Of a stretch of DNA of 64,000 nucleotides, positions 23,319 through 37,674 are shown piece after piece (the stretch's first letter is position 1; every line of letters starts with the position of its first letter). The position numbers and the translations under genes are program-made. The notes beneath the pieces were generated by a model. It was given only the letters and a program-made list of their open reading frames with translations. It made no database searches and was not told where the DNA came from. This DNA is from Flavobacterium cheniae. GTDB taxonomy: Bacteria > Bacteroidota > Bacteroidia > Flavobacteriales > Flavobacteriaceae. Where the stretch lies: positions 866,431-930,430 of the forward strand of contig NZ_SNZC01000001.1 of assembly GCF_004363695.1 (NCBI RefSeq). The letters run 5' to 3'.

Positions 23319-23990
23319 ATGAAAAAACTTACACAAATTGCATTAACTGCCTTATTATTTGTAGGAATTACAGCTACTGCTCAAACACAATTAAAAAAAG
23401 GTTCTGTAACTTACAGTATGACAATGCCTAATGTTAGCGAAGAAATGGCGGCTATGGGTGAAAGTACTATAACAGTTCACTTTGATGAAAAAACGCAAGC
23501 TACCGATATGAGTATGATGGGTGGTATGATGTTGATGAAGACAATCGTTCCTAATGAGAATAAAAAAGATTCGAAAATGACGGTTGAAGTAATGGGTATG
23601 AAATATGAAATTACTGATGCTGGAGAAGAAGCTTCAAAGAACGCAAATGGTCTTACCAATTTAGAAAATGCAAAAGATATTGTTTACGATAAAAAAGACA
23701 CAAAAGAAATTGCAGGTTTTAAATGTTACAAAGCTACTGTAAATATGAATGATGGTACAAAAAGTACTTACTACATTACTGAAGCAATTGTACCACAAAT
23801 AAGTGCAACAGAATCTAAATTAAAACTTGCTGGTTACCCTTTAGAAATTACAACGCAAACTGCTCAAGGAGAAATGGTTATGAAAGCTACTAAATTTTCA
23901 AAAGAAGTTCCTGCAGAAGCTTTTAAAGTTGGTGAAGGATACACAAAAACAACTATGGAAGAATTCCAAAAACAAATGGGTGGTATGTAA
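23319..23990 (+). CDS. Exported DUF4412/GLPGLI-like protein
   Basis: A 223-residue periplasmic protein with a signal peptide ending at ATAQ (about 21). It is rich in methionine (MSMMGGMMLMK near 66-76, and MGGM at the end). The body has the pattern KGSVTYSMTMP ... KDTKEIAGFKCYKATVNM ... STYYITEAIVPQ seen in DUF4412 and related GLPGLI proteins. The methionines could bind a soft metal such as copper, but this is a guess from composition. It stands alone with a terminator after it and a TACATTTA promoter-like element near 23282. Confidence 0.75.
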   Translation: MKKLTQIALTALLFVGITATAQTQLKKGSVTYSMTMPNVSEEMAAMGESTITVHFDEKTQATDMSMMGGMMLMKTIVPNENKKDSKMTVEVMGMKYEITDAGEEASKNANGLTNLENAKDIVYDKKDTKEIAGFKCYKATVNMNDGTKSTYYITEAIVPQISATESKLKLAGYPLEITTQTAQGEMVMKATKFSKEVPAEAFKVGEGYTKTTMEEFQKQMGGM

Positions 23991-24015
23991 TACTAACTCC
24001 ATTTATAATATAATA

Positions 24016-24041
24016 AGCACTGAGAAATCGGTGCTTTTTTT
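24016..24041 (+). terminator. Terminator after the DUF4412-like gene
   Basis: AGCACTG / CGGTGCT stem with one G-T pair and a loop, followed by a T run. Confidence 0.82.
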
Positions 24042-24098
24042 GTTTGTTACAATCTGATAATGTAGAAAACCTTTTGATGATTTGTAAGATTTTTTTAT

Positions 24099-24106
24099 TA
24101 TTTTTG
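24099..24106 (+). promoter_or_regulatory. -7 element of the PhzF cassette leader
   Basis: TATTTTTG matches TAnnTTTG exactly. It lies 13 bp before the first hairpin of the leader, the same spacing (within 1 bp) as in the second leader copy at 35640-35647. Confidence 0.6.
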
Positions 24107-24112
24107 AACAAA

Positions 24113-24200
24113 GATGAAACTAACATTTGTTAGATATATACACCCAAAATTGGGTAGATAAGTCTGATTTTGTCAAACATATAAACGAGTTAGCAGTAAT
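24113..24200 (+). promoter_or_regulatory. Conserved three-hairpin leader, copy A
   Basis: Three successive inverted repeats lie between the promoter and the PhzF gene. Hairpin 1 is CTAACA/TGTTAG (24120-24133). Hairpin 2 is at 24130-24167, with a perfect ACCCAA/TTGGGT stem inside it. Hairpin 3 is GTcTGA/TCAaAC (24162-24178). They are followed by CATATAAACGAGTTAGCAGT. The same layout occurs at 35654-35745, with different bases in the stems but pairing kept. The closing GTTAGC resembles the integron crossover sequence. Confidence 0.6.
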
Positions 24201-24215
24201 TTTAAACAGAACATA

Positions 24216-25004
24216 GTGAAACATAATATATATCAAATTGACGCATTTACGGACACAATTTTTGGAGGAAATCCTGCTTGTGTTGTGCCACTTGACAATT
24301 GGTTGTCAGACGAAATCTTGTTGAAAATAGCAAAAGAAAACGCAGTTGCTGAAACTGCTTTTTTTGTTGACAAAGGAGAAAAAATCCATTTACGATGGTT
24401 TACGCCTGAAATTGAAATGGATTTGTGCGGTCACGCTACACTTGCAACTGCTCATAGTTTAGCGACAATTCTTGACTATAAGAAAGATAAAATTGTGTTT
24501 GAAACTTTAAGTGGCGACTTAATTGTCAAAATTGAAAATGGAAAATATAAAATGAACTTCCCATCAAGAATGCCTATTGTCGACATCTTACCACCGACAA
24601 TTTCAAAATCCTTAAATATTCAACCGAAAGAAATTTTGAAATCAAGAGACTATGTTTTGGTGTATGAAAATGAAACAGAAGTTAGAAACATAAAAATTGA
24701 CAGACAATTATTCGACCAAATAAATCTTGACCCAGGAGGTGTAATTGTAACAGCAATTGGAGACAATTGCGATTTCATTTCAAGATTTTTCACACCGCAA
24801 GCATCAATTTTAGAAGACCCTGTAACAGGTTCTGCACATTGTTCTTTAATTCCATTTTGGGCGAAAAGACTAAATAAAAAAGAAATTTATGCTCAACAAG
24901 TTTCTGAACGATTGGGCAAGTTGTATTGTGAAGACAAAGGAGATCGAGTGATTATTAGTGGACAAGCAAAAACATATTCAATTGGAGAATTTTGGACAGA
25001 ATAA
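24216..25004 (+). CDS. PhzF family isomerase/epimerase-like protein
   Basis: A 262-residue protein of the PhzF/diaminopimelate-epimerase fold. The N-terminal motif YQIDAFTDTIFGGNPACVV and the catalytic glutamate in NAVAETAFF (E46) are present, with MDLCGHATLATAHSL near 70 and the second-lobe motif DPVTGSAHCSLIPFWAKRL near 205. PhzF enzymes isomerise small metabolites; no phenazine genes lie nearby, so phenazine synthesis is not implied. The start is GTG, since no ATG is in frame before the conserved N terminus. It sits inside the cassette described above, which suggests horizontal acquisition. Confidence 0.88.
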   Translation: MKHNIYQIDAFTDTIFGGNPACVVPLDNWLSDEILLKIAKENAVAETAFFVDKGEKIHLRWFTPEIEMDLCGHATLATAHSLATILDYKKDKIVFETLSGDLIVKIENGKYKMNFPSRMPIVDILPPTISKSLNIQPKEILKSRDYVLVYENETEVRNIKIDRQLFDQINLDPGGVIVTAIGDNCDFISRFFTPQASILEDPVTGSAHCSLIPFWAKRLNKKEIYAQQVSERLGKLYCEDKGDRVIISGQAKTYSIGEFWTE

Positions 25005-25011
25005 AACTACT

Positions 25012-25140
25012 GTTAACAGCACCTACCCAAAAGGCGGGGGTTCGTGTTCCAAAGACAGTTTTGTGGTTAAACAAACATTAGTTTTTCAAATCAAGTTTTG
25101 TGGTAAAAGTCCCGCCCTTCGGGTAGCTGCAAAACGTTAA
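25012..25140 (+). repeat. attC-like imperfect palindrome after the PhzF gene
   Basis: The left arm reads TTAAC (25013), CAG, CTACCC (25023-25028), GGCGGG (25033-25038). The right arm reads CCCGCC (25111-25116), GGGTAG (25121-25126), CTG, GTTAA (25136-25140). The arms pair in order with small bulges and enclose about 70 bp. This is the build of long integron attC sites. Confidence 0.6.
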
Positions 25141-25179
25141 AAAGCTGTTTATGGCTACTCGCTATTTTAAAACATAAAA

Positions 25180-25212
25180 AAATCCCAATCTTTCAATTGG
25201 GATTTTCTTTTT
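25180..25212. terminator. Terminator of ornithine aminotransferase
   Basis: A perfect 9-bp stem (AATCCCAAT / ATTGGGATT) around CTTTCA, with an A run on the left and a T-rich run on the right. It follows the minus-strand gene and can act both ways. Confidence 0.85.
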
Positions 25213-26492
25213 TATTTTTCAAACTCTTTTAAAGTATTGATGATAATTGCAACACAGTCTCTCAATTGCTCTTCTGTCATTACTAATGGCGGAGCAAAAC
25301 GAATGATGTTTCCGTGTGTTGGTTTGGCTAACAAACCATTTTCTGCTAAACGTACACAAATATTCCAAGCGGTGTCACTTTCTTCGGTATCGTTAATTAC
25401 AACAGCATTCAACAAACCTTTTCCTCTTACTAAAGTAGCAATGTTAGAAGTCTCGATAAACTTTGCTAATTCCTCACGGAATATTTTTCCTAATTTTCTA
25501 GCATTTTGGGACAAGCTTTCTTCCGAAACTACTTCTAAAGCCGCCATAGCAACCGCAGCCGCCACCGGATTTCCTCCAAAAGTAGAACCATGTTGTCCTG
25601 GTTTAATAACATTCATAATGCTATCATTTGCCAAAACAGCTGAAACTGGATAAGCACCACCAGATAATGCTTTTCCTAAAATTAGAATATCTGGTTGCGT
25701 ATAAGTAGCTTGTTTTTCACATTTTGCTTCACAAGTACAATTGCCACAAACGGCTAATAAAGAACCCGTTCTTGCAATACCTGTTTGCACTTCGTCAGCG
25801 ATGAATAAAACGTTATTTGCTTCACAAATTGCTTTTGCTCTTTTAAGAAAATCTTCTGATGGTGTGTAAACTCCAGCTTCCCCTTGAATAGGTTCTACTA
25901 AGAATCCTGCAATGTTTTTTGATGAATTTACTGCTTTTTCTAAAGCTTCAATATCATCGTAAGGAATGCTAATAAATCCTGCAGTATAAGGTCCGAAGTT
26001 TTTACGTGCGTTTTCATCATTTGAGAATGAAATAATCGTAGTCGTTCTTCCGTGGAAGTTACCATCACAAACGATAATTTGTGCTTCGTTTTCGTTGATT
26101 CCTTTTTTCTCGTATGCCCATTTTCTACACAATTTTAAAGCGGTTTCTACTGCTTCAGCTCCCGTGTTCATTGGTAATACTTTATCAAATCCGAAATAGT
26201 TCGTTACAAATTGTTCGTAAACCCCTAATTTATCATTGTAAAATGCTCTTGATGTTAACGTTAAAGTTTGGGCTTGTTGCACCATTGCACCCACAATTTT
26301 TGGATGACAATGTCCTTGATTTACCGCAGAATAAGCCGAAAGAAAATCGTAATATTTCTTACCTTCTACATCCCAAACATAAACTCCTTCTCCTCTACTC
26401 AAAACTACTGGTAGTGGATGATAATTGTGTGCACCGTACTTATCTTCTAATGCAATAGCTTCAGCCGAACTCATTTTTTCTAAAACTGACAT
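25212..26492 (-). CDS. rocD: Ornithine aminotransferase
   Basis: A 426-residue PLP enzyme of aminotransferase class III that converts ornithine and 2-oxoglutarate to glutamate semialdehyde and glutamate. Visible motifs are [28 protein letters not shown] at the N terminus, [13 protein letters not shown] near 107, [12 protein letters not shown] near 238, and the PLP lysine in [14 protein letters not shown] near 284. An insertion with a cysteine cluster ([14 protein letters not shown], near 254-267) interrupts the usual sequence after ARTG and could bind a metal. The gene is single, with a TACTTTTG promoter element at 26562-26555. Confidence 0.92.
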
Positions 26493-26554
26493 AAAATTTT
26501 GTTATTGATTGTTACATCGCAATTCCTTCTTACTGGTGAGAAATCAACCGATTA

Positions 26555-26562
26555 CAAAAGTA
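26555..26562 (-). promoter_or_regulatory. -7 promoter element of rocD
   Basis: TACTTTTG on the minus strand, an exact TAnnTTTG match about 60 bp before the start codon. No good -33 element was found. Confidence 0.5.
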
Positions 26563-26614
26563 GTAAATTTTGTTGGAAGATGGAAAAAATCACCCATCAC
26601 CCATCATCCATCAA

Positions 26615-27154
26615 CTATTCAAACATTTCCAACAACGTCGTAACCGTATTCCAATTTCTAATTGTGGCGACAACGTTTAATTTTTTCTCAATATATTTTT
26701 GATCCAATCTGGTTTTTCCAGCTCCAACAGCGTATTTGATGTAAATTCTACTTTTATCAATTGCGGCTTCATCAGGTTTGAATTGACTTATTTTTAAATC
26801 ATTTAAAGCGCCACTTGACAATTCTTTAGAAATAAAAGCAACGTACAACTTCTTAGTATCGCACTCTTTCTCTTTTAGATAAGAATTGTTTTTGAAACAT
26901 GCTTCCAAATCTTCTTTACCAATAACCACCACAGGAACTTCCAAACCTAATTCTTTGAAAATTTCTTGTTTGATTTTAAAACCAACACTCGCGCCATGTT
27001 CTTCTTCCGAATCCACAAAAACATTGCCCGATTGAATATAAGTACGTACATTTTGAAATCCAGCATTTTCTAAAAGCGATTTCAAAACGTCCATTTTTAT
27101 CATGTTATGTCCGGAAACATTAATTCCGCGTAGTAAGGCTAAATGGGTTTTCAT
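26615..27154 (-). CDS. DUF1697 family protein
   Basis: A 179-residue soluble protein. It begins with the family motif LALLRGINVSGHNMIKMDVLKSLLENAGFQNVRTYIQSGNVFVDS, and later has ALNDLKISQFKPDEAAI and a C-terminal NVVATIRNWNTVTTLLEM, as in DUF1697. Function is unknown. A promoter element TATTTTTG lies at 27178-27171, giving a leader of only about 10 nt and placing the -33 element inside the neighbouring gene's 3' end. Confidence 0.9.
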   Translation of the reverse strand: MKTHLALLRGINVSGHNMIKMDVLKSLLENAGFQNVRTYIQSGNVFVDSEEEHGASVGFKIKQEIFKELGLEVPVVVIGKEDLEACFKNNSYLKEKECDTKKLYVAFISKELSSGALNDLKISQFKPDEAAIDKSRIYIKYAVGAGKTRLDQKYIEKKLNVVATIRNWNTVTTLLEMFE

Positions 27155-27185
27155 TTGGTGTAATTTGATGCAAAAATAGAATTTC

Positions 27186-27884
27186 CTATTTAATTCGGTT
27201 CAAAATATCGTTCATCATTTCGATTTGTATCTTTTGAATCTCAATTAACTCTTGTTGTTGGTGCATAACTAAATGATCAATTTTATCATCTAACATTCTA
27301 ATTTCTAGTTCTGATTTCAAATTAATCATGTAATCTTTCTTGGCACGTACACGGTCTTTTTCTTCCTGACGGTTTTGACTCATCATAATGACAGGTGCTT
27401 GTAATGCTGCAATACAAGACAAAATCAAATTCAATAAAATGAATGGATACGGATCAAATTCTTTGTTCGTAAAAATAATTACATTGGAAGTAATCCAAAT
27501 GGTAATAAAAATAAAAAAAGAAATAATAAAAGTCCAACTTCCGCCAAAAGATGCCACTTTATCAGCCACTATTTGTCCGTAGTTCCTAGTATCTGCTTCA
27601 TCTTCTATTTTGGCTACAAATGAAGTATCGTCTCCTAATGATTTGATGACATCTTTCTCAAGATTAGAAAGTTCTCTAATTTCGGTTTGCAAGTATTTTG
27701 AAATGTATTTTTCACGATACACATTCAATTCTTGTATAGAAATAGAATCATTCACGTCAAAATTGGGATAATCTTCTAAAATTAGGTTTAAAATAGAGGT
27801 TCGTATGGTTTTTCCAAAAACCTGATCTTGTAGAGGAAATTCAATATTTGAAATAGCACTTATAAAAGTTTTATTGCTTCTCAT
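27186..27884 (-). CDS. DUF1003 family membrane protein
   Basis: A 232-residue protein with two transmembrane helices (about 112-135 and 145-168). The family pattern is ADKVASFGGSWTFIISFFIFITIWI, then DPYPFILLNLILSCIAALQAPVIMMSQNRQEEKDR, followed by a charged helical C terminus. The first 100 residues form an extra soluble N-terminal domain. Function is unknown. It reads in the same direction as the DUF1697 gene 31 bp downstream, which has its own promoter element. Confidence 0.88.
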   Translation of the reverse strand: MRSNKTFISAISNIEFPLQDQVFGKTIRTSILNLILEDYPNFDVNDSISIQELNVYREKYISKYLQTEIRELSNLEKDVIKSLGDDTSFVAKIEDEADTRNYGQIVADKVASFGGSWTFIISFFIFITIWITSNVIIFTNKEFDPYPFILLNLILSCIAALQAPVIMMSQNRQEEKDRVRAKKDYMINLKSELEIRMLDDKIDHLVMHQQQELIEIQKIQIEMMNDILNRIK

Positions 27885-27994
27885 AATTCAAAAACATTTT
27901 AGCTAATTTACGATTAAAACCATTGGATTCAATCAAATTGATTTTAAAAATAGTAGAAAACGAAAAAATCCTATCAAATCCTCCTAACAATTCT

Positions 27995-28002
27995 TATTTT
28001 TG
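27995..28002 (+). promoter_or_regulatory. -7 promoter element of rlmD
   Basis: TATTTTTG is an exact match and ends only 4 bp before the ATG at 28007. If it is used, the transcript is leaderless or nearly so, and the in-frame codon at 27923 cannot be the start. Confidence 0.5.
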
Positions 28003-28006
28003 CCTC

Positions 28007-29419
28007 ATGGGAAAAAAGAAAACAGACAAAATCGTATTCGAAAACGTAAAAATCCTTGATGCAGGTGCAAAAGGTGTATCGGTAGCAAAAGCTCCTGATG
28101 GCAAAGTAATATTTCTTCCAAATGTAGTACCAGGAGATGTGGTAGACGTACAAACCATGAAGAAAAGAAAAGCCTACTACGAAGGTAAAGCTATAAAAAT
28201 CCACGAATTTTCAGAACATAGAATTGAACCGGTTTGTGAGCATTTTGGTGCTTGTGGTGGTTGCAAATGGCAAAACATGAAGTACAGCCAACAATTGTTC
28301 TATAAAAATCAGGAAGTTTATAATAATTTAAAACGAATTGGTAAGATTGAATTACCAGAATTCGAGCCAATTTTAGGTTCAGAAAAACAATTATTCTACA
28401 GAAATAAAATGGAATTTGGTTTCTCGAATGCGCGTTGGATGACCGATGCCGAAATTCAATCGGGAACTGAATTTGATAATAAAAATGCATTAGGATTTCA
28501 TATTCCTAGAATGTGGGATAAGATTTTAGATATTGAGAAATGTCATTTACAAGAAGATCCATCGAACGAAATTCGTAACGAAATCAAACGTTTTGCAAAC
28601 GAAAACAATCTAACATTCTTCAATGCTAGAGCTGTGGAAGGTTTGTTGCGAACGTTGATGATTCGAACTGCTTCAACCGGAGAACTTATGGTGCTGATTC
28701 AGTTTTATGAAAACGATAAAAACGGAATCGAATTGATGATGAACTTCTTAGCAGAGCGTTTTCCACAAATCACTTCGTTACAATATGTTATCAATCAAAA
28801 ATTGAATGATACGTTGTATGACCAAGACATTATTTTGTTCAAAGGTCGCGATTATATTTTGGAAGAAATGGAAGGCTTGCATTTTAGTATTAATGCGAAA
28901 TCATTCTATCAAACCAATTCGGATCAAGCGTATGAATTGTACAAAATTACTAGAGAATTTGCTGGATTAACCGGAAACGAAACCGTTTACGATTTATATA
29001 CAGGAACTGGAACTATTGCGCAATTCGTATCGAAAAAAGCGAAGAAAGTAATTGGTGTAGAAGCTGTTCCAGAAGCGATTATAGATGCAAAAGCCAATGC
29101 AACACGCAATAACATTACGAATTGTGAGTTTTATGTAGGTGATATGAAAAATGTATTCAATGACGAATTCATCAACCAACACGGACAACCCGACGTTATC
29201 ATCACCGATCCACCAAGAGATGGAATGCATAAAGATGTGGTAGAAATGTTATTAAAAACAGATGTACCAAAAATTGTGTATGTAAGCTGTAATTCGGCAA
29301 CACAAGCCCGTGACTTAGCATTAATGGACGAAAAATACAAAGTAGTTCGTGTTCGTCCTGTGGATATGTTTCCGCAAACGCATCATGTGGAAAACGTGGT
29401 TCTTTTAGAAAAAAGATAA
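28007..29419 (+). CDS. rlmD: 23S rRNA (uracil-C5)-methyltransferase RlmD/TrmA family
   Basis: A 470-residue SAM-dependent enzyme that methylates a uracil in 23S rRNA (position 1939 in E. coli). A TRAM domain covers about 10-60 (GAKGVSVAKAPDGKVIFLPNVVPGDVV). An iron-sulfur cluster site is CEHFGACGGCKWQ near 78-90. The SAM motif is YDLYTGTGTIAQFV, and the active-site motif is YVSCNSATQARDL with the nucleophile cysteine. The ATG at 28007 is chosen because the TRAM domain begins soon after it and a promoter lies just before it. It heads an operon with DUF6452, DUF6048 and a barrel protein. Confidence 0.92.
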   Translation: MGKKKTDKIVFENVKILDAGAKGVSVAKAPDGKVIFLPNVVPGDVVDVQTMKKRKAYYEGKAIKIHEFSEHRIEPVCEHFGACGGCKWQNMKYSQQLFYKNQEVYNNLKRIGKIELPEFEPILGSEKQLFYRNKMEFGFSNARWMTDAEIQSGTEFDNKNALGFHIPRMWDKILDIEKCHLQEDPSNEIRNEIKRFANENNLTFFNARAVEGLLRTLMIRTASTGELMVLIQFYENDKNGIELMMNFLAERFPQITSLQYVINQKLNDTLYDQDIILFKGRDYILEEMEGLHFSINAKSFYQTNSDQAYELYKITREFAGLTGNETVYDLYTGTGTIAQFVSKKAKKVIGVEAVPEAIIDAKANATRNNITNCEFYVGDMKNVFNDEFINQHGQPDVIITDPPRDGMHKDVVEMLLKTDVPKIVYVSCNSATQARDLALMDEKYKVVRVRPVDMFPQTHHVENVVLLEKR

Positions 29420-29422
29420 ATT

Positions 29423-29953
29423 ATGAAAAAAATAGTTTTTATAACCCTATCCTTACTTTTAGCGCTTTCATTTTGGAACTGCGAAAAAGATGATATTTGT
29501 GCCGAAGGAACTCCAACTACACCAAGAGTAATTATTGAGTTTTACGATGCTGCCAATCCTACCGTTTTGAAGAATGTTACAAATCTTAGGGTTGAAGAAT
29601 TTGGAACAAACGAAGGTGTTGTTTTTAATGAAACTTTAGATGAAACAAATGAAGCTAGATATTTAACAAATGGAAATAAAATCGCAATTCCATTGAAAAC
29701 ATTCGCCAATATTTCTGAGTTTGATTTTAAATTCAATTACGGAGATGCTTCTGAAAACAATGATGTAATTTCATTTACGTATGATAGAGATGAAATTTAC
29801 ATTTCTCGCGCTTGTGGTTATAAAACAATTTTCAGCTTAACAGCAAACAATCCAAGTGTTTTTCCTGCAACAGGATATTGGATTCAAAACATTGAAGTAA
29901 TGCAACCTAATATAGAAACCGAAAATGAAGTACATGTTAAAATTTATTTTTAG
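29423..29953 (+). CDS. DUF6452 family lipoprotein
   Basis: A 176-residue lipoprotein with a signal peptide and lipobox (SFWNC, cysteine 20) followed by EKDD. The body is a beta-rich domain beginning DICAEGTPTTPRVIIEFYDAANP, as in DUF6452. It lies 3 bp after rlmD and overlaps the next gene by 29 bp. The order rlmD, DUF6452, DUF6048 is one I recall from other flavobacteria. Function unknown; a partner of the outer-membrane protein that follows is likely. Confidence 0.82.
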   Translation: MKKIVFITLSLLLALSFWNCEKDDICAEGTPTTPRVIIEFYDAANPTVLKNVTNLRVEEFGTNEGVVFNETLDETNEARYLTNGNKIAIPLKTFANISEFDFKFNYGDASENNDVISFTYDRDEIYISRACGYKTIFSLTANNPSVFPATGYWIQNIEVMQPNIETENEVHVKIYF

Positions 29954-30641
29954 TCTGAGCTTGGTTTGTATTTCGTTATTAGGAAATGCACAAACTAAAG
30001 ACACTGCAAAAGTTATGTATCCTGAACGCTATGGTTTGCGCGTGGGAGTTGATTTACACAAAATAGCGCGTTCGTTTTACGAAAAAGACTATAGAGGTTT
30101 TGAAGTGGTAGGAGATTATCGTTTAACCAAGCGTTTTTACATAGCAGGTGAAATTGGAAACGAAGACAAAACCGTTGACGACGACCGCTTGAACTTCACC
30201 ACAAAAGGAACATATTTTAAAGTAGGTTTTGATTACAATTCGTTTGAAAACTGGCTCGACATGGAAAACATGATTTACGCCGGAATGCGATATGGAGTTA
30301 GTAGTTTTAGCCAAACTTTAAACAGCTACACCATTTATGACCCAACGAACTATTATGGAGAAAACACCATAATTTCAGGAGCAGAATTCGATGGCTTAAA
30401 TGCAAGTTGGTTAGAAGTTGTAGGTGGTATCAAAGCTGAGTTATTTAATAACCTTTATATGGGTTTTTCGGTACGATTGAACTATTTGGTATCCAACAAA
30501 AAACCAGATAATTTTGACAACCTTTTCATACCTGGTTACAACCGAACGTATGACGGAAAATTTGGAGCAGGATTTAACTACACCTTGAGTTACTTTATAC
30601 CGATTTACAAGAAAAACAAAACTACAACTGAGAAAAAATAA
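29925..30641 (+). CDS. DUF6048 family outer-membrane protein
   Basis: A 238-residue predicted beta-barrel with a signal peptide ending at GNAQ (about 23). Alternating strands are visible, such as RLTKRFYIAGEIGNED, YFKVGFDYN, MIYAGMRYGVSSFSQ and KFGAGFNYTLSYFIPIY. It ends in a basic tail (KKNKTTTEKK). The first 29 bp overlap the lipoprotein gene, showing translational coupling. A copy of its last 17 codons lies 4.9 kb away at 35519, the mark of a lost or rearranged paralogue. Confidence 0.82.
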   Translation: MKYMLKFIFSLSLVCISLLGNAQTKDTAKVMYPERYGLRVGVDLHKIARSFYEKDYRGFEVVGDYRLTKRFYIAGEIGNEDKTVDDDRLNFTTKGTYFKVGFDYNSFENWLDMENMIYAGMRYGVSSFSQTLNSYTIYDPTNYYGENTIISGAEFDGLNASWLEVVGGIKAELFNNLYMGFSVRLNYLVSNKKPDNFDNLFIPGYNRTYDGKFGAGFNYTLSYFIPIYKKNKTTTEKK

Positions 30642-30642
30642 A

Positions 30643-31209
30643 ATGAAAATTAAATTTCTAGTTCTTACTACATTATTCAGTTTAAATTTATTCAGCCAAA
30701 ATTCAAAACTTAGTGTAGAATTAAATTACCCAATACCTTTTGACAATAATTTTATTGCAGAAAATTATAAAAGCATCGTTGATGTTGGAGTAAAATACCG
30801 TTTCATTAATTCAAAAGTTATCAATGTTGGGGTAGCATTTAACGCAGGTGTTTTATACTTTGATAATAAAAGTTACTTTCAAGATTATAAAGTAACCAAC
30901 TATATGCTTCAACCTAAAATATTTGGTGAATTTAATATTCAAAAATTCCAACCTTTTATTGGCATAGGATATACCTCAATGATTTTTAATTACAAAGGAA
31001 GCAACAATGGATTTGATATTAGCAATGAAAGTGACACACAAAGTGGGATTGATTTTAATATTGGTTTAAAATACAAGGTTTTAAAAAATGTTTTTGTTCA
31101 AATTCAATATGATTACATAGTACTTAATGTTGGAGATGAAATTCCTAGAACAAAATACAATACAAATGTAAATTTATTAAAAATAGGATTAGGTTATCAA
31201 TTTTATTAA
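30643..31209 (+). CDS. Small outer-membrane beta-barrel protein
   Basis: A 188-residue protein with a signal peptide ending at LFSQ (about 19) and about eight alternating strands (for example SIVDVGVKYRFI, PKIFGEFNIQKFQPFIGIGYTSM, VFVQIQYDYI). It ends in GLGYQFY, a typical barrel end. It lies 1 bp after the DUF6048 gene and ends the operon. The size suggests an eight-stranded barrel of the OmpA/OmpX type. Function unknown. Confidence 0.75.
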   Translation: MKIKFLVLTTLFSLNLFSQNSKLSVELNYPIPFDNNFIAENYKSIVDVGVKYRFINSKVINVGVAFNAGVLYFDNKSYFQDYKVTNYMLQPKIFGEFNIQKFQPFIGIGYTSMIFNYKGSNNGFDISNESDTQSGIDFNIGLKYKVLKNVFVQIQYDYIVLNVGDEIPRTKYNTNVNLLKIGLGYQFY

Positions 31210-31246
31210 TGGTCCTTTCAATAATAAAAAATTAATATGATATATA

Positions 31247-31276
31247 AAAAAGGCAGTCATTAAGACTGCCTTTTTT
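31247..31276. terminator. Bidirectional terminator
   Basis: A perfect stem (AAAAGGCAGTC / GACTGCCTTTT) around ATTAA, with A and T runs, between converging genes. Confidence 0.9.
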
Positions 31277-31282
31277 ATTGTT

Positions 31283-34200
31283 TTATCTCTTCAAAGAGAA
31301 GTGTGCTTTAAATTGTTTTGCAACTCCATTTTCTGTATAATCTAATGAGAACCAATAATCGGTTGATGGAAGTAGTTCTTGGTTATACGTTCCATCCCAA
31401 CCTTCGCTATCATCAGTAGCACTTAACTGTTTTAACAATTTACCATAACGGTCAAAAATGTACAACTTAGCTCCTGGTTGGTTCAGTCCGATAATATTCC
31501 ATGTATCGTTTATTCCATCTCCATTTGGTGTGAAGTAATTTGGATAATCAATTATAGTAACTATTTGTGTCATAAATGTACAACCTTCTGTATCAAGAAT
31601 GGTTACTAAATGTTGCCCTGTACTTACACCTGTAAATACATTAGAAGATTGTAACGAACCTTCATCTAACGAATATAGTAAGGTTCCGGTTCCATCTGGA
31701 ACTGTTACGGTAATAGTAGCATTATCACTAAAATATTCACTTTGAACTACTGTCATTGAAGTTGCTGGCATTGTTTCACTTACTGTAGCTGTAACCATTG
31801 ATGATGAACAACCTGTTAACCAATTTGTAGCTATAACACTATAAGTGCCTGCTTCATCAACTACTAATGTTGCATTTATTTCACCTGGAATGGTATCTCC
31901 ATTACTATCAAACCATTCAAAGTCATAATCAATATCATTTAAACCTGTATTTAAAGTGTAGGTTTGATAAACTTCTCCATCAGATGTAATACAAATATTA
32001 CCATCTACTAATTTTGGTAATGGTGCTGGATTTACATTCACTCTATAATCGGTATAACTACCCTCACACTCGCCTAGACTTGTTCGAACTCGGTAAATTA
32101 CATATCCACCTTGGGTAGAGGTTAAAACATCATTAATAGGCTGTGGTGCAATTCCTGAACCTATATTGGCTCCTGATACATTCACTACCGTTAATACTTC
32201 CCATTCTATTTCTGTTCCTGCTATCAAGGGCGACACATCAATCATTAAATTGGTAGGTTGTCCACTACAAATGGTTTTATCTGGTGATGGAACAGCAATT
32301 CCTGGATTTGGATTCACCGTTACAATTGCGCTTTGAAGCGTATTTCCAACACATACATTTTTAACGGCAGATACTTCAAAATAAATTGTTCCTGCTACAA
32401 GTGGATCGCTTGTAATTACTTGTAAATCAAAACCTGTTGTGGTTGATATAGCAGTAATTGTTCCTGAAGTCGTTCCTCCTACAACAGTTACACCATTTGT
32501 AATAGCAGTCCAATTATAAGTAATTCCACTAATATTACCTGAAATTTCAACATGAACATTATTATTACCATTTGTTGCTGAACACACAGAAGTATCTGTA
32601 ACGGCTACTATTTCTACAACTGGGTTTGGATTAATAGTAATCGTAATCGCTTCAGATTCATCACCTAAACATCCGTTAGCATAAGGTGTAATTTTAACAG
32701 TAACAGTTCCAATAGTCTCAGAATTATTAAGTGTGACTATTTGATTAATATTCGACTCATCTCCATTAGTTACGAAAGTTCCTGAAACATTAGATATGGT
32801 AGCACTCCATATAAATGTCGTATTTGGTAAATTACTACTTAAAACAAAATCTAAAGGGCTTCCATCACAAATAGAATTAGTTACTGTGTAAGTTAAAACA
32901 GGACGTCCTGTAATTGTAATGGTTCCCGAAGCTGTTGCTTGTGGATTACAACCACCTGTAGTTACAATGGAATAACTTGATACTCCAGCTACATTTGTAG
33001 CGCCAGAAATAGTTAACAAACCAGTTGTAGCATCATAACTGTGTGTAATTCCTGCTGGCAATCCTAAAACAGAAACACCTGTTGCAGTGCCAGTAACTTG
33101 ATATTGAATTGGATCAATTGTCGTATCTGCACATCTTGATTGATTTGCTGTACTAGCTGCTGAAACCAATGTTATAGTGGTGTCCGCAAACAAATTAGCG
33201 GTAGAACTCAACACGACATTCGACGAACAAATTCCATCAAAAACACTAATTGTACTTAATGTTGTACTACTTGTTATTCCTGAAACATTCACAACTCCTT
33301 CACCTAAAGCATCAATTGCAACGGTTTGGGCAGGATTTCCATCAATCGAATAACTTACTTGTGTATTTGGACTTGCATTTATAGTAAAACTTACTGTTGA
33401 ACCTGAACATATTGGTCCGTTATTAGTAACGCTAACTATTGTTGGCAAAGGTAATTGTTGCGCTATTACAAAAGAAGTAGAATTTGCAGATGCACAACTT
33501 CCATTTCCTGCCGAAACAAAATAAGATGTCCCAAATGTCATTCCAGAAATTAGTCCAGATGCATCAACTGAAGGTCCTACTGGGTCAAAAATATAACTTT
33601 GACCTGCTACATAATTGGTAATCCTTGCAAATCCATTCGCTAAACACGTAGGAGCAGTAACTGATACTAATGGAACAGCTGGAACTAGTAACATTGGATT
33701 ATTAACAAAACTATTTGAAACTGCTGAAGTACATAATGATGAATTAGTACTTGTTACTTCATAACTAGTTCCTAAAACCATTCCTTGAATTATTCCCGAA
33801 GAATTAATAGTAGGTCCTAATGGGTTAAAAGTATAATTTAAAGTTGCATTATAATTAGTGATAGTACTAAATCCGTTTGCTGAACATGTTGGTGCCGTTA
33901 CGCTAACAATTGGAGCGGCTGGTATAGGTAAAATCGAATTTACACTAAATGGAGTTGTATTTGCTGAAGCACAACTTCCGTTTCCAGTAGTAAGAGTGTA
34001 AGGTGTTCCAAATAGCATTCCTGAAATCACGCCAGTTGAAGCGACTGTTGGACCTGCAGGATTGAAAGTATAAGTTTGACCTGTTACATAATTGGTTATA
34101 GTAGCTGAGCCATTTGATGTACATGTTGGTGAAGTAACATTAACAATTGGCACTACCGGTGAAGTATTGACTGTAATTGTAACATCATCAAAACAACTCA

Positions 34201-35323
34201 AATCACTTGATGTCCATCTAAAAACATTTGCTCCTGCTGACAATCCACTTACTTGTGTATTAGGAGAAGTATTCGATGTGAAATTTCCAGTTCCAGAAAC
34301 AACACTCCAAGTTCCAGTTGCAGGTGAATTTGCCGCTAAATTTGTAGATGTAGAATTGCAAATCGATTGATTTACACCAGCATCACATTGTTGAGGAGTA
34401 AAACTACCTCCTTCTAAATAAACAACACTATCTAAACTTCCGTCGGAAACATCAGTAATAATTAACTTAATATGATACGTTTGTCCTGGTGTTAAATTAG
34501 ATTGAGAAGCGGTTAAAATCTGAGTATTACCATTTAAATGCGTTCCATCAATTCTTCCCGAAAATTCAGGTGAAACTACATTTTGAACCCAATTAGGATT
34601 GGAAAGCAAACAAGCGGAAGAATCTCCATCAGGACCGATAACGCCATCATTTACAGAATTAATAGAAACCTGAGAACCATTTGGTAAAATAGCCATATTT
34701 CTAGCATCATTACTAAAACCTTGACCTCCTGAAATACCAGGGCCACTAATTAAAAATCCAAATTTATCATTGAATTCGGTACATTGATAATTGGAATCAA
34801 CACCGTTATTATACTCTTCAGAACCAAAAACATATCTAAAAGTAACTGAAGTATGAACAGTTACAAAGTCAAACTCTAAAATTGTGGCATTATAATACCC
34901 TTGAGCATCTGCTAATACGGCTAAATCATTAACAAAAGTAGAACATGTTCCATCTTGTTGTACTAATCCAGGAGTACAGTCAGCATAAAACTCATCCATC
35001 AAAGGAGGTGGAGTTGTAGGCGTCCCAAGTGGTGCTGGAATATCTGAGGTTTTTCCAGTGGTTAAAACAATTCCATTAGCAAAACCCATCTGGCTTAAAG
35101 TTGTTGTAGCGGTTGAAAAATAACCTACTTGATATTTGCTATTATCGCCATAAACACCTCTGTAAGCTACATTGGAAATCGTAACACCACTCATTGGAGG
35201 AACTAAAACTCCATTAATTAATTGATTTGGAGTATAAATGGTATTATTAATTGTAATTTGGGCTTTTAACTGAAAACTTAAAAGTAAAATTAGTAGTGCA
35301 AATAGCTTTTTCTGGAATGTCAT
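31283..35323 (-). CDS. Giant surface protein with choice-of-anchor L domain and T9SS type B signal
   Basis: A 1346-residue secreted protein. A signal peptide ends at about residue 22 (LKAQ). A choice-of-anchor L domain covers about 30-310 (ISNVAYRGVYGDNS, FANGIVLTTGKTSDI, TFRYVFGSEEYNNGV). About ten immunoglobulin-like or PKD-like domains follow, including three close repeats of about 80 residues (each with APTC...NGF...ITNY...FNPxGP). The last 90 residues are the gliding-motility-associated type B C-terminal domain (YFTPNGDGINDTWNIIGL...). It is carried out by the type IX system and attached to the cell surface, as an adhesin or matrix protein. It lies alone, with its own promoter. Confidence 0.92.
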   Translation of the reverse strand: MTFQKKLFALLILLLSFQLKAQITINNTIYTPNQLINGVLVPPMSGVTISNVAYRGVYGDNSKYQVGYFSTATTTLSQMGFANGIVLTTGKTSDIPAPLGTPTTPPPLMDEFYADCTPGLVQQDGTCSTFVNDLAVLADAQGYYNATILEFDFVTVHTSVTFRYVFGSEEYNNGVDSNYQCTEFNDKFGFLISGPGISGGQGFSNDARNMAILPNGSQVSINSVNDGVIGPDGDSSACLLSNPNWVQNVVSPEFSGRIDGTHLNGNTQILTASQSNLTPGQTYHIKLIITDVSDGSLDSVVYLEGGSFTPQQCDAGVNQSICNSTSTNLAANSPATGTWSVVSGTGNFTSNTSPNTQVSGLSAGANVFRWTSSDLSCFDDVTITVNTSPVVPIVNVTSPTCTSNGSATITNYVTGQTYTFNPAGPTVASTGVISGMLFGTPYTLTTGNGSCASANTTPFSVNSILPIPAAPIVSVTAPTCSANGFSTITNYNATLNYTFNPLGPTINSSGIIQGMVLGTSYEVTSTNSSLCTSAVSNSFVNNPMLLVPAVPLVSVTAPTCLANGFARITNYVAGQSYIFDPVGPSVDASGLISGMTFGTSYFVSAGNGSCASANSTSFVIAQQLPLPTIVSVTNNGPICSGSTVSFTINASPNTQVSYSIDGNPAQTVAIDALGEGVVNVSGITSSTTLSTISVFDGICSSNVVLSSTANLFADTTITLVSAASTANQSRCADTTIDPIQYQVTGTATGVSVLGLPAGITHSYDATTGLLTISGATNVAGVSSYSIVTTGGCNPQATASGTITITGRPVLTYTVTNSICDGSPLDFVLSSNLPNTTFIWSATISNVSGTFVTNGDESNINQIVTLNNSETIGTVTVKITPYANGCLGDESEAITITINPNPVVEIVAVTDTSVCSATNGNNNVHVEISGNISGITYNWTAITNGVTVVGGTTSGTITAISTTTGFDLQVITSDPLVAGTIYFEVSAVKNVCVGNTLQSAIVTVNPNPGIAVPSPDKTICSGQPTNLMIDVSPLIAGTEIEWEVLTVVNVSGANIGSGIAPQPINDVLTSTQGGYVIYRVRTSLGECEGSYTDYRVNVNPAPLPKLVDGNICITSDGEVYQTYTLNTGLNDIDYDFEWFDSNGDTIPGEINATLVVDEAGTYSVIATNWLTGCSSSMVTATVSETMPATSMTVVQSEYFSDNATITVTVPDGTGTLLYSLDEGSLQSSNVFTGVSTGQHLVTILDTEGCTFMTQIVTIIDYPNYFTPNGDGINDTWNIIGLNQPGAKLYIFDRYGKLLKQLSATDDSEGWDGTYNQELLPSTDYWFSLDYTENGVAKQFKAHFSLKR
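33450..34160 (-). repeat. Three tandem internal repeats in the surface protein gene
   Basis: Three consecutive segments of about 240 bp encode repeats of the form SVTAPTCxxNGFxxITNYxxxxxYxFxPxGPxxxxxGxIxGM. They are alike enough to allow slippage or recombination, so copy number may differ among strains. Confidence 0.7.
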
Positions 35324-35353
35324 TACAGTAATTATTGATTAACAAAAACGATG

Positions 35354-35383
35354 TAAAATTATTACTAAATTTCACAAGCACAA
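35354..35383 (-). promoter_or_regulatory. Promoter of the surface protein gene
   Basis: On the minus strand, TTG at 35383-35381, a 19-bp spacer and TAATTTTA at 35361-35354, one mismatch from TAnnTTTG. Confidence 0.6.
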
Positions 35384-35518
35384 AACCTTTCTTTAAGAAT
35401 TTTCCTTAAAAAATTAAAAAAAATACTTTTTATAGTTAATCTAAATTTATCATAAACAAGGTTACCAATTACAGTACTATTTTACAACAAATAAAGCTTG
35501 CTTTTTAATTACTCGCAA

Positions 35519-35572
35519 AGTTATTTCATCCCAATTTACAAGAAAAACAAAACCACAACCGAGAAAAAATAA
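35519..35572 (+). pseudogene. 3' remnant of a DUF6048 gene copy
   Basis: Reading SYFIPIYKKNKTTTEKK and a stop, this stretch repeats exactly the last 17 residues of the DUF6048 protein at 29925-30641. The DNA differs at several third positions, so it is an old copy and not a recent duplication. Nothing upstream of 35519 continues the frame. A terminator follows at 35580. The intervening 4.9 kb (small barrel gene and surface protein gene) may have been inserted between or beside tandem copies. Confidence 0.8.
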
Positions 35573-35579
35573 TAAACGA

Positions 35580-35607
35580 AGCGTTACGAAAGTGGCGCTT
35601 TTTTTAT
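35580..35607 (+). terminator. Terminator after the DUF6048 remnant
   Basis: AGCGTTAC / GTGGCGCT, an 8-bp stem with two G-T pairs closed by a GAAA tetraloop and followed by a run of T. It now terminates nothing complete and is probably a leftover of the lost gene. Confidence 0.8.
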
Positions 35608-35639
35608 GAGTGATATTTATAATGTTGTAACTATTTTAT

Positions 35640-35647
35640 TATATTTG
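35640..35647 (+). promoter_or_regulatory. -7 element of the second cassette leader
   Basis: TATATTTG matches TAnnTTTG exactly and lies 14 bp before the first hairpin, as in copy A. Confidence 0.6.
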
Positions 35648-35653
35648 ATAAAA

Positions 35654-35745
35654 CAAAAAAAGTATGATGTTTATCATACATATCTACCCAAAAACAGACA
35701 GATATGTATGACTGCGTCATACATATAAACAAGTTAGCCGTCAGT
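35654..35745 (+). promoter_or_regulatory. Conserved three-hairpin leader, copy B
   Basis: Hairpin 1 is GTATGAT/ATCATAC (35662-35679). Hairpin 2 is TCATACATATCT/AGATATGTATGA (35674-35711), a perfect 12-bp stem around ACCCAAAAACAGAC. Hairpin 3 is GTATGAC/GTCATAC (35706-35722). They are followed by ATATAAACAAGTTAGCCGTCAG. Hairpins 1 and 2 share bases, as do 2 and 3, so the element could switch between folds. It aligns with copy A through the whole length, and stem changes between the copies keep the pairing. Confidence 0.65.
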
Positions 35746-35774
35746 TTTGAGAACGCCACAATAAAACAGAAAAT

Positions 35775-36386
35775 ATGAATGTCGAAAGAAAGCAACTAAT
35801 CGAATTATGCGACAAATTTCTGAATGATGAAATCAGCTCAAATGATTTAACAGTATTTGCTTTTAATGCAATCATGTCCGATGAAATGGAATGGGACGAC
35901 GAAGTTATCTCAGACACTCTTTTTGAATGGGATAATGAAGAAATAAATTTTCCAATTAATAAAGTTAATATGAAGCTTTGGAAAAACAGGCTGGAAAATG
36001 ATATTGACGAATTAATTATTTACAACAGCTGGAATTTTCATATTGAAAGCCAAAAAGAAATTTGTGAAAAGTATGGCTCAAATTGGAAACCGATAAATAA
36101 AACTTTAAATATTGGAATTTCAGAAAATCTGGATTTAGAAACATTGAATGGATTAAGACACAAAGCCAAAAAAGGAGAAGTTTGCTGGTTCATTTGGAGT
36201 GGAGAATATTCTGAAGACGAGAATTTTTTCAAACCAATTTGCGCGGAACATTTAATGCAGAAAAAACCAAAACTAATTGATTATTTAGGGCTTGATGAAG
36301 GCTACAGATTTCTAATAACAGAAAGTGGCTATGAAGATGTTTGGTTTGACGAAAAGTTACTGGAAATAGAAAAACCGAACGGCTAA
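35775..36386 (+). CDS. Cassette-borne protein of unknown function, possibly immunity-like
   Basis: A 203-residue acidic, soluble protein without signal peptide or membrane segment. The N-terminal half (LIELCDKFLNDEISSNDLTVFAFNAIM) is helical and acidic. The C-terminal half (LNGLRHKAKKGEVCWFIWSGEYSEDENFFKPICAEHL, then GYRFLITESGYEDVWFDEKLL) has the feel of small immunity-protein domains such as DUF2185/Imm33, but the match is not certain. It is the first gene behind the leader of the second cassette array, and its stop codon overlaps the attC-like site. Confidence 0.7.
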   Translation: MNVERKQLIELCDKFLNDEISSNDLTVFAFNAIMSDEMEWDDEVISDTLFEWDNEEINFPINKVNMKLWKNRLENDIDELIIYNSWNFHIESQKEICEKYGSNWKPINKTLNIGISENLDLETLNGLRHKAKKGEVCWFIWSGEYSEDENFFKPICAEHLMQKKPKLIDYLGLDEGYRFLITESGYEDVWFDEKLLEIEKPNG

Positions 36387-36511
36387 CAGCCGTTTCTCGC
36401 AATTGCGAATTTTGTGGTAAGTTCACGTTTACGTTTCGCAATAATTTTTATCTTTAACAGAAAGTAATTCGTTCCGCAGTTCGCAACTGACGAGAAGCGG
36501 CGGAACGTTAG
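36383..36511 (+). repeat. attC-like imperfect palindrome between two cassette genes
   Basis: Opens with CTAAC (36383-36387) and closes with GTTAG (36507-36511). Inner pairs in order are GCCG (36389) with CGGC (36498), TTCTCG (36394) with CGAGAA (36491), and TGCGAA (36404) with TTCGCA (36480). One-base bulges interrupt the stem, as in attC sites. Its 129-bp length is in the range of the Vibrio superintegron repeats. Confidence 0.7.
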
Positions 36512-36521
36512 TGGCAATTTT

Positions 36522-37280
36522 ATGAAATACCTTCTTTACATATTTTTTCTAGCAACAATAAGTTGTAATAATCAGTCTAAAAAGATTGATAAATCTGTTA
36601 TTGAAACAAATAATGATATTGTATTAAAGCATCAAATAGACAATTCGAAACACTACACAAAAAAAGACACTGTTTATATTAATACTGAAATTGGAGAAAC
36701 GCTAAAGTTTGCAAAAGAAGAATTTAACCAAATTATAGGCAAGCATCCCGAGTTTTTTGAAAAATATCCTAACAATCCTGACCAGTTATATTTTAATGAT
36801 AATGATAGAGAAGAATTTGGAAGTGAAGTTGGACAAGACACTTATTATGCATTATATGCTTATTTTTTAAAACAAAGAAACGGCATTGACAAATATGCAC
36901 AACAACGTAAGAAACTTATTGAACTATACTCAAATGTAAATTCACTATTCGGTCAGATTCAATATGGTGGAACATACTTTGGACATCAAGCAATGAGAAT
37001 TTTAGGATACGCTGAATATTCTATTTATCTTCTTCCAAAAGAGAAAAATGAAATCCAAAAAACCTATGACATCACCGAGCAAAAAAAACTTTACATAAAA
37101 TCGCTAAGACAACTTATAGAAGATGAAAGTAAAATTGACTTTAATACTTTAGGAAAGGAAAAAGAGGAACGAAATAAAAACCTTAATCGAATTGTTGACG
37201 AAATAGACAAACTAATTTCAGATAATTTTTATTTGAGCCGAACACAAGAATTTCACTACGGACATTATGAATATTATTAA
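36522..37280 (+). CDS. Cassette-borne lipoprotein of unknown function
   Basis: A 252-residue lipoprotein with a signal peptide and lipobox (ATISC, cysteine 15) followed by NNQSKK. The rest is hydrophilic and mainly helical (EIGETLKFAKEEFNQIIGKHPEFFEKYP; YAQQRKKLIELYSNVNSLFG; EEERNKNLNRIVDEIDKLIS) and holds FGSEVGQDTYYALYAYFLKQRNG. The start is 11 bp after the end of the preceding attC-like site and has no clear ribosome-binding site. It may depend on read-through from the leader promoter at 35640. Confidence 0.75.
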   Translation: MKYLLYIFFLATISCNNQSKKIDKSVIETNNDIVLKHQIDNSKHYTKKDTVYINTEIGETLKFAKEEFNQIIGKHPEFFEKYPNNPDQLYFNDNDREEFGSEVGQDTYYALYAYFLKQRNGIDKYAQQRKKLIELYSNVNSLFGQIQYGGTYFGHQAMRILGYAEYSIYLLPKEKNEIQKTYDITEQKKLYIKSLRQLIEDESKIDFNTLGKEKEERNKNLNRIVDEIDKLISDNFYLSRTQEFHYGHYEYY

Positions 37281-37295
37281 CAAGAAAAACTGCCA

Positions 37296-37375
37296 CTAAC
37301 AGGCGTTTGGCAAGATTGCGAATTTTACAGTAAATTCACGTTTACATTTCATATGAAATTTTACCCAGCTAACGC
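37296..37375 (+). repeat. Left half of an attC-like site
   Basis: CTAACAGGCGTTTGGC and the following TTGCGAATTTT...GTAA.TTCACGTTTAC run closely match the left half of the palindrome at 36383. The expected right arm with GTTAG is absent and the sequence runs into GCTAACGCGAGCGTAACGC. The site is truncated or diverged. Confidence 0.55.
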
Positions 37376-37410
37376 GAGCGTAACGCACGTGAACACAAAA
37401 TAAAAAAAAC

Positions 37411-37440
37411 AAAAATCCCGAGCTCACACTCGGGATTTTT
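37411..37440. terminator. Terminator
   Basis: A perfect stem (AAAAATCCCGAG / CTCGGGATTTTT) around CTCACA, with A and T runs. It ends the minus-strand small membrane protein gene and also the cassette region. Confidence 0.88.
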
Positions 37441-37674
37441 TTATTCTATTTCTTTCACACCCTTTATAAAAAACCACTTCATGTAGATTTTTTCTCCGTT
37501 GTGGGTTTTAATTGCTTGAAATTTAGGTGCTAAAATTAAAGCTACCATAAAAGCGGTCATTGGAATCCAAAGTCCATTCAAATGCGTGAATTCGTCCACT
37601 AAATATAATGTTGGTAAATAAATCACCACAAATCCTAAGAAGTTATATAAGAATGATTTTACTTTTTTATTCAT
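37441..37674 (-). CDS. Small two-helix membrane protein
   Basis: A 77-residue protein with two predicted transmembrane helices (about 8-25 and 33-50) and a basic end (AIKTHNGEKIYMKWFFIKGVKEIE). The stop lies immediately after the terminator. It reads in the same direction as nearby housekeeping genes. No function is recognised; the length and composition are typical of small inner-membrane proteins conserved in flavobacteria. Confidence 0.7.
   Translation of the reverse strand: MNKKVKSFLYNFLGFVVIYLPTLYLVDEFTHLNGLWIPMTAFMVALILAPKFQAIKTHNGEKIYMKWFFIKGVKEIE

Follow-up and report, generated by a model that had tools for sequence, protein, structure and literature searches.

The locus at positions 35640-37363 of the window (the whole 64,000-nt stretch of Flavobacterium cheniae DNA analyzed here) very probably represents an orphan platform that belongs to a gene-capture system of integron type in the Flavobacteriaceae, one that would work with a recombinase other than IntI. 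All of its features read on the forward strand. The leader (35640-35735), recognized by reading the sequence, starts with a promoter-like −7 box, TATATTTG (35640-35647), followed by an attI-like site (35662-35735) made up of two palindromic boxes, a short central repeat, and the core ACAAGTT. TAnnTTTG is the Bacteroidota −7 promoter consensus, and the TATATTTG box, also identified by reading, is conserved ahead of the leaders in other loci (inspected leader and integrase loci). The leader has inverted arms and ends at its 3′ side in AAACAAGTTAGCC, after which gene 1 follows. The GTT of the core lies at 35733-35735, where cassette 1 begins. Assuming a crossover between G and TT, a position that we infer, cassette 1 spans 35734-36507 and cassette 2 extends from 36508 to 37295, up to a broken site.

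Gene 1 (35775-36386) encodes 203 amino acids with a C-terminal Imm33-like domain, and its stop codon TAA (36384-36386) falls within CTAAC (36383-36387), as noted in an earlier interpretation made from the DNA letters without database searches (the sequence-only reading). A complete attC-like inverted-repeat site of 131 nt (36382-36512) separates the two cassettes. Gene 2 (36522-37280; 252 amino acids) is lipoprotein-like as judged from its N terminus, and behind it lies the first half of a second attC-like site (37296-37363), identified by a DNA match to the full site (76% identity across 68 nt). The covariance model built from such sites, R1, gave no match at this half site, indicating that the 3′ arm of the second site is gone. 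Leader, gene 1, full site, gene 2, and half site were thus all located where the sequence-only reading had placed them. Its view that both genes are of unknown function held for gene 2, for which no Pfam match was obtained at E values up to 1, and needs a partial correction for gene 1, as residues 92 to 192 match the Imm33-like domain PF24719 (E value, 7e−38). A 69-nt direct repeat (83% identity) was also found at 30573-30641 and 35504-35572, the second copy just upstream of the leader. Its sequence corresponds to the end of the gene spanning 29925-30641, which would fit a duplication into this place or an insertion of the 5 kb in between.

The window carries a first array, the leader of which (24072-24191) was missed by the leader DNA search and recognized by reading; the last integrase codons are still readable in it (21 of 24 bases). 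It is followed by a cassette gene of the PhzC-PhzF family (24216-25004) and a complete attC-like site (25012-25141), all on the forward strand; this site matches R1, being part of its training set. Across the 2.74-Mb genome, R1 gave 15 matches at E values up to 0.1, seven of them within C1:183282-189267, and further leader copies were located at C1:208180 (E value, 1.8e−10) and C1:1001743 (E value, 4e−6), while weaker matches in the DNA search resembled chance. Other cassette genes of the genome match ParE, ParD, Fic, PhzF, and TPR families. Behind the last site, three arrays of this genome have the sequence CGTTAAAAAGCT..TTATGG in common (window 25135-25165; L018, about 2232-2260; L017, about 205-240), which may represent the downstream side of an ancestral empty platform.

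The DNA search identified copies of the full site with 94% and 77% identity at two other places in the genome, together with partial copies. R1 also matched it strongly (115.4 bits; E value, 4.4e−22, in 390 kb), but since the window site is in the training set of the model, the DNA search provides the independent evidence for the site. A scan for complementary arms yielded 52 candidate sites, three of them noise by eye, and with DNA folding parameters the bottom strand folded more stably in 49 of the 52. R1 was built from an alignment of 47 sites, omitting the three noise candidates, one with extended bounds, and one duplicate. In this alignment 89.8% of cells were paired and 19 of 24 pairs had changed on both sides; covariation was 0.583 versus 0.144 in shuffles and at most 0.103 when the sequences were slid, figures that are inflated because the sites had been chosen for their complementary arms. 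On one of the five measures, 32 of 500 shuffles also reached the observed figure of 42 further pair types. At one inner position, A stands opposite C in all 47 sites, which corresponds to T-G on the bottom strand. Judged by its sequence, the window site belongs to a covarying family of attC-like sites.

At E values up to 0.05, R1 gave 176 matches from 26 sources, counting training sites and opposite-strand echoes. The longest arrays, all on the strand of the integrase described below, comprised 27 (L105), 21 (L110), 17 (L093), and 14 (L101) sites, with up to 27 within one 20-kb stretch, and in several relatives the integrase heads such a long array. The exception was L104, whose only two strong matches lie on the strand opposite to the integrase. 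Among the 30 loci fetched in the family-wide integrase search, 17 had R1 matches, and all 23 matches were on the strand of the integrase. Two species (G414 and G445) share an attC-like site with no difference over 128 nt (region of L101:15542-15669 and L109:18490-18617), a sign of recent exchange. A DUF805 RNA in L065 was considered as part of a site and rejected, as it precedes another cassette gene.

A leader search of about one genome per genus across the Flavobacteriaceae returned, outside the window's genome, short chance-like matches in six genomes only (L027 to L032, excluded from later counts); therefore, the genus was searched. The leader was present in 47 of 199 Flavobacterium genomes, the window's own included (E value up to 1e−4), and two of the leaders fetched (L040 and L059) lay directly 3′ of a gene for a 347-amino-acid tyrosine recombinase. 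When the best matches of an integrase search in the genus were inspected (30 loci, L062 to L091), the leader was directly 3′ of the integrase gene in 29, and the 30th (L066) is cut by a contig end 35 nt past the integrase. A complete leader ending in AGTT starts right after the integrase stop codon in 27 of the 30, and a complete leader was also present in seven more integrase loci (L105 to L111). In L065 and L067 the leader has an insert at the core, and the L065 leader is short. GC-rich, strongly folded inserts of about 150 to 190 nt with no evident gene were found exactly at the attI core in these two Flavobacterium loci (L065, about 1275-1440; L067, about 604-757) and on one Chryseobacterium plasmid (L177, 10151-10322), each followed by a normal cassette start. 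They look like gene-less minimal cassettes.

The leader arms vary between species yet remain complementary, with six of eight predicted pairs changed on both sides among 22 sequences. Many platforms have no integrase, and several can occur in one genome. In 9 of 31 leaders with no integrase in view, the last integrase codons are still present, scoring higher than 99% of letter shuffles; some orphan platforms, at least, thus appear to be decayed integrase loci. This remnant is found in the leader of the window's first array and is missing from that at 35640-35735. Alternatively, a promoter overlapping the last integrase codons could preserve them. At one chromosomal place in four genomes (L018 of the window's own genome, L034, L035, and L054), the same upstream gene, presumably encoding a ribosome-hibernation-type protein, and a common leader are followed by four unrelated first genes.

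Relatives of the integrase were identified in 98 of the 199 genus genomes, mostly as one copy each, and in 139 of 248 Flavobacteriaceae genomes; at the same threshold (protein search, E value up to 1e−60), the window's genome has no integrase of the 347-amino-acid kind. Two Chryseobacterium plasmids, NZ_CP041688.1 and NZ_CP094530.1, carry the integrase at 67 to 68% identity with a leader behind it. On NZ_CP041688.1, R1 matched the strand of the integrase five times, four of the matches being full length and one cut; on the integrase-bearing NZ_CP094530.1 (L178), R1 found no match. A group II intron lies inside the plasmid array (L177, 15722-17464).

Scored against the IntI model TIGR02249, the integrase reached 198.2 and 203.9 bits (cutoff, 265), and against the NCBIfam model XerA_Arch (NF040815) it reached 219.9 and 222.3 bits (cutoff, 220); the label of the latter mentions integron integrase, which is a name and not a test. 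The IntI-specific segment of about 40 residues is missing: in an alignment to IntI4 (2a3v), the integrase has 16 residues versus 58 in IntI4. Its nearest solved structures are the XerA-like chains 4a8e and 5hxy, and about 70 extra residues lie N-terminal to the SAM-like domain. Counting only rows that matched a text pattern, both versions of which missed many rows, the two catalytic motifs are 59 residues apart in 27 of 29 Flavobacterium proteins, 206 in one protein of the family, 100 in 14 of 19 IntI proteins, and 66 in one of the genome's own Xer proteins (two overlapping loci). In a quick tree of 36 rows, for which the program warned of long branches, IntI formed one clade (support, 100), the Flavobacteriaceae integrases grouped together (support, 91), and the two Xer proteins of the genome stood apart. 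From its sequence, the leader-linked recombinase is not IntI.

Of the other explanations, that of a canonical integron remnant, its cassettes placed by an IntI since lost or acting from elsewhere, survives best and is very unlikely. It would account for an overall anatomy that is the same as that of integron cassette arrays, and IntI does occur in the phylum, the model exceeding its cutoff in 70 of 247 sampled genomes, which serves as the positive control. However, none of 249 sampled Flavobacteriaceae genomes had a canonical IntI (E value up to 1e−40, in a search with no internal control match), and the leader goes with a different recombinase. In the window's genome, no protein exceeded the IntI cutoff and only other tyrosine recombinases were matched, and R1 applied to 20 IntI loci with a 1.5-kb flank gave one weak match, on the strand opposite to the integrase. 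The phylum genomes listed with IntI include none from the Flavobacteriaceae. The count of 70 exceeds what a passage in PMC9024848 suggests; there, only In0 elements are given for Bacteroidetes from an earlier survey, with one complete integron, in Salinibacter ruber.

Rather less credible still is cassette movement by the host's housekeeping XerC/XerD, a mechanism known from other Xer-exploiting elements, with the adjacent recombinase being incidental. The window's genome does encode Xer-like proteins of 299 and 296 amino acids and still holds cassettes, but the constant position of the leader after the special recombinase in 29 of 30 loci and the compensatory changes of its arms between species speak against this explanation.

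The distribution of the passenger genes lends support to the integron-like array proposed in the sequence-only reading, whose own refuting conditions were checked and left the proposal standing. Relatives of gene 1 were found in 11 and of gene 2 in 7 other genomes of the 199, and no genome besides the window's own holds relatives of both; the two genes are therefore not always found together. In 6 of the 11, the match to gene 1 spans the Imm33-like half only. Of the 80 loci from the search for gene 1 relatives, 26 were scanned with R1. Thirteen near-full-length relatives of gene 1 (L179 to L191; 54 to 82% identity), some from Flavobacterium cauense and F. amnicola, were identified; in eight of them a site lies no more than 30 bases from the gene end, and seven also have one just upstream. 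No R1 site was found at the seven loci with gene 2 relatives (1.5-kb flank), so none of these relatives was seen in a cassette, a result that counts against the favored explanation. With the first gene defined as the longest frame beginning no more than 450 nt from the leader, those behind 52 leaders fell into 51 protein families, the sole linked pair being one locus fetched twice. Thus, the same leader precedes different passengers, and by both the DNA search and the R1 matches the palindromes lie beside unrelated genes elsewhere.

Recombination of circles leaves the two ends of the same cassette complementary, and this was assessed starting from 219 full-length array-strand R1 matches from 36 sources, 31 of which were excluded because they had no AAC/GTT at the model ends or lay at the end of a stretch. 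The 12 bases outside the core were compared for 126 cassettes under 1.5 kb; 15 longer intervals were not used. The two ends of the same cassette were complementary at 9.88 of 12 bases, and 117 of the 126 cassettes had a run of at least five. Between the flanks of a single site, complementarity was near chance (5.15 of 12; a run of five or more in 8 of 188), and random end pairs gave 4.59 of 12 and such a run in 3%. The difference for cassette ends was pronounced (Mann-Whitney P = 2.5e−44), with related cassettes not being independent, and a smaller version using a hand list of 160 sites differed little. In the window, the ends of cassette 1 showed a run of six and 9 of 12 beyond the core, and the start and end of cassette 2 a run of seven and 11 of 12; the flanks of the site between the cassettes gave a run of two and 5 of 12. 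For the first-array cassette, 10 of 12 end bases matched, the pairing being interrupted one base out from the core. This end complementarity is best read as the footprint of cassettes moving as circles, and the cassettes can therefore be regarded as units of movement, a genomic footprint of a crossover in GTT that covers the 126 cassettes and the window. The comparison needs sequence alone and is applicable to any suspected array.

A reading without recombination, in which the palindromes serve as RNA structures or terminators and the leader is that of an mRNA, is scarcely tenable. Although the leader arms covary and lie behind a promoter-like box, this would leave unexplained the complementary ends of the same cassette, why unrelated genes follow the same leader, and why that leader is linked to a recombinase gene, and no Rfam family came near its gathering score in 23900-37500. 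An additional RNA role is compatible with these data.

In the favored explanation, that of an orphan platform of a gene-capture system, the attI-like leader with its promoter-like box would have taken up two independent one-gene cassettes by site-specific recombination at the GTT core. Each cassette would end in an attC-like site that folds as a single strand, more stably as the bottom strand, which may be the strand chosen in recombination. The putative enzyme is the 347-amino-acid XerA-like tyrosine recombinase lacking the IntI-specific segment, because in relatives its gene directly precedes the leader and in several heads long arrays; it would catalyze the exchange, and the cassettes could be expressed from the leader. 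The window array is now probably frozen and present-day movement unlikely, given its broken last site and the lack of such an integrase in the genome.

The system resembles chromosomal integrons in that the integrase adjoins the recombination platform, the arrays are mostly of single genes in one direction, and the inverted-repeat sites have a GTT core, a better-folding bottom strand, and paired cassette ends. It differs in that the recombinase falls below the IntI cutoff and does not have the specific segment, the Flavobacterium integrase gene and the cassettes share one reading direction, the platform is itself palindromic, and many platforms, several per genome, have no integrase. An IntI with its specific extra segment was looked for and not found, the window's genome having neither IntI nor the 347-amino-acid integrase, and for this reason the locus is not filed as a canonical integron, while in sequence-level tests it is integron-like. 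An attI next to the integrase was seen in relatives (29 of 30 loci), the window having an attI-like site with no integrase, and the features of attC (inverted core and inner repeats, imperfect pairing, and a folded bottom strand) are present. PMC9668308 gives a definition of attC clusters (CALINs) as at least two attC sites less than 4 kb apart with no integrase. At the window locus, a single complete site is accompanied by one half site, and the C1:183282-189267 cluster of the same genome has seven R1 matches. Like CALINs, the genome holds cassettes and sites with no integrase, but in the window an attI-like leader is retained, and the enzyme that is absent would be something other than IntI. 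XerA-type recombinases (NF040815) are comparable in that the integrase scores around the family cutoff and has XerA-like solved relatives; it differs from them in being tied to attI-like/attC-like arrays and in its 70 or so additional residues.

Integrons are defined by IntI and usually sought via IntI. A literature search, with subscription papers and preprints outside its coverage, returned no report of this Flavobacteriaceae system. On balance we lean slightly toward a broader proposal, that the Flavobacteriaceae have a second kind of integron in which a XerA-type recombinase handles folded sites with no IntI segment. One integrase would serve several scattered attI platforms, its use in trans being conjecture, so that captured genes could be expressed from many fixed loci, and the Chryseobacterium plasmids would carry the mobile form. 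If true, this would be a parallel system with another recombinase, implying that attC-type sites can be handled without the IntI-specific segment, and an unsurveyed pool of cassettes would exist in a large environmental family and on plasmids.
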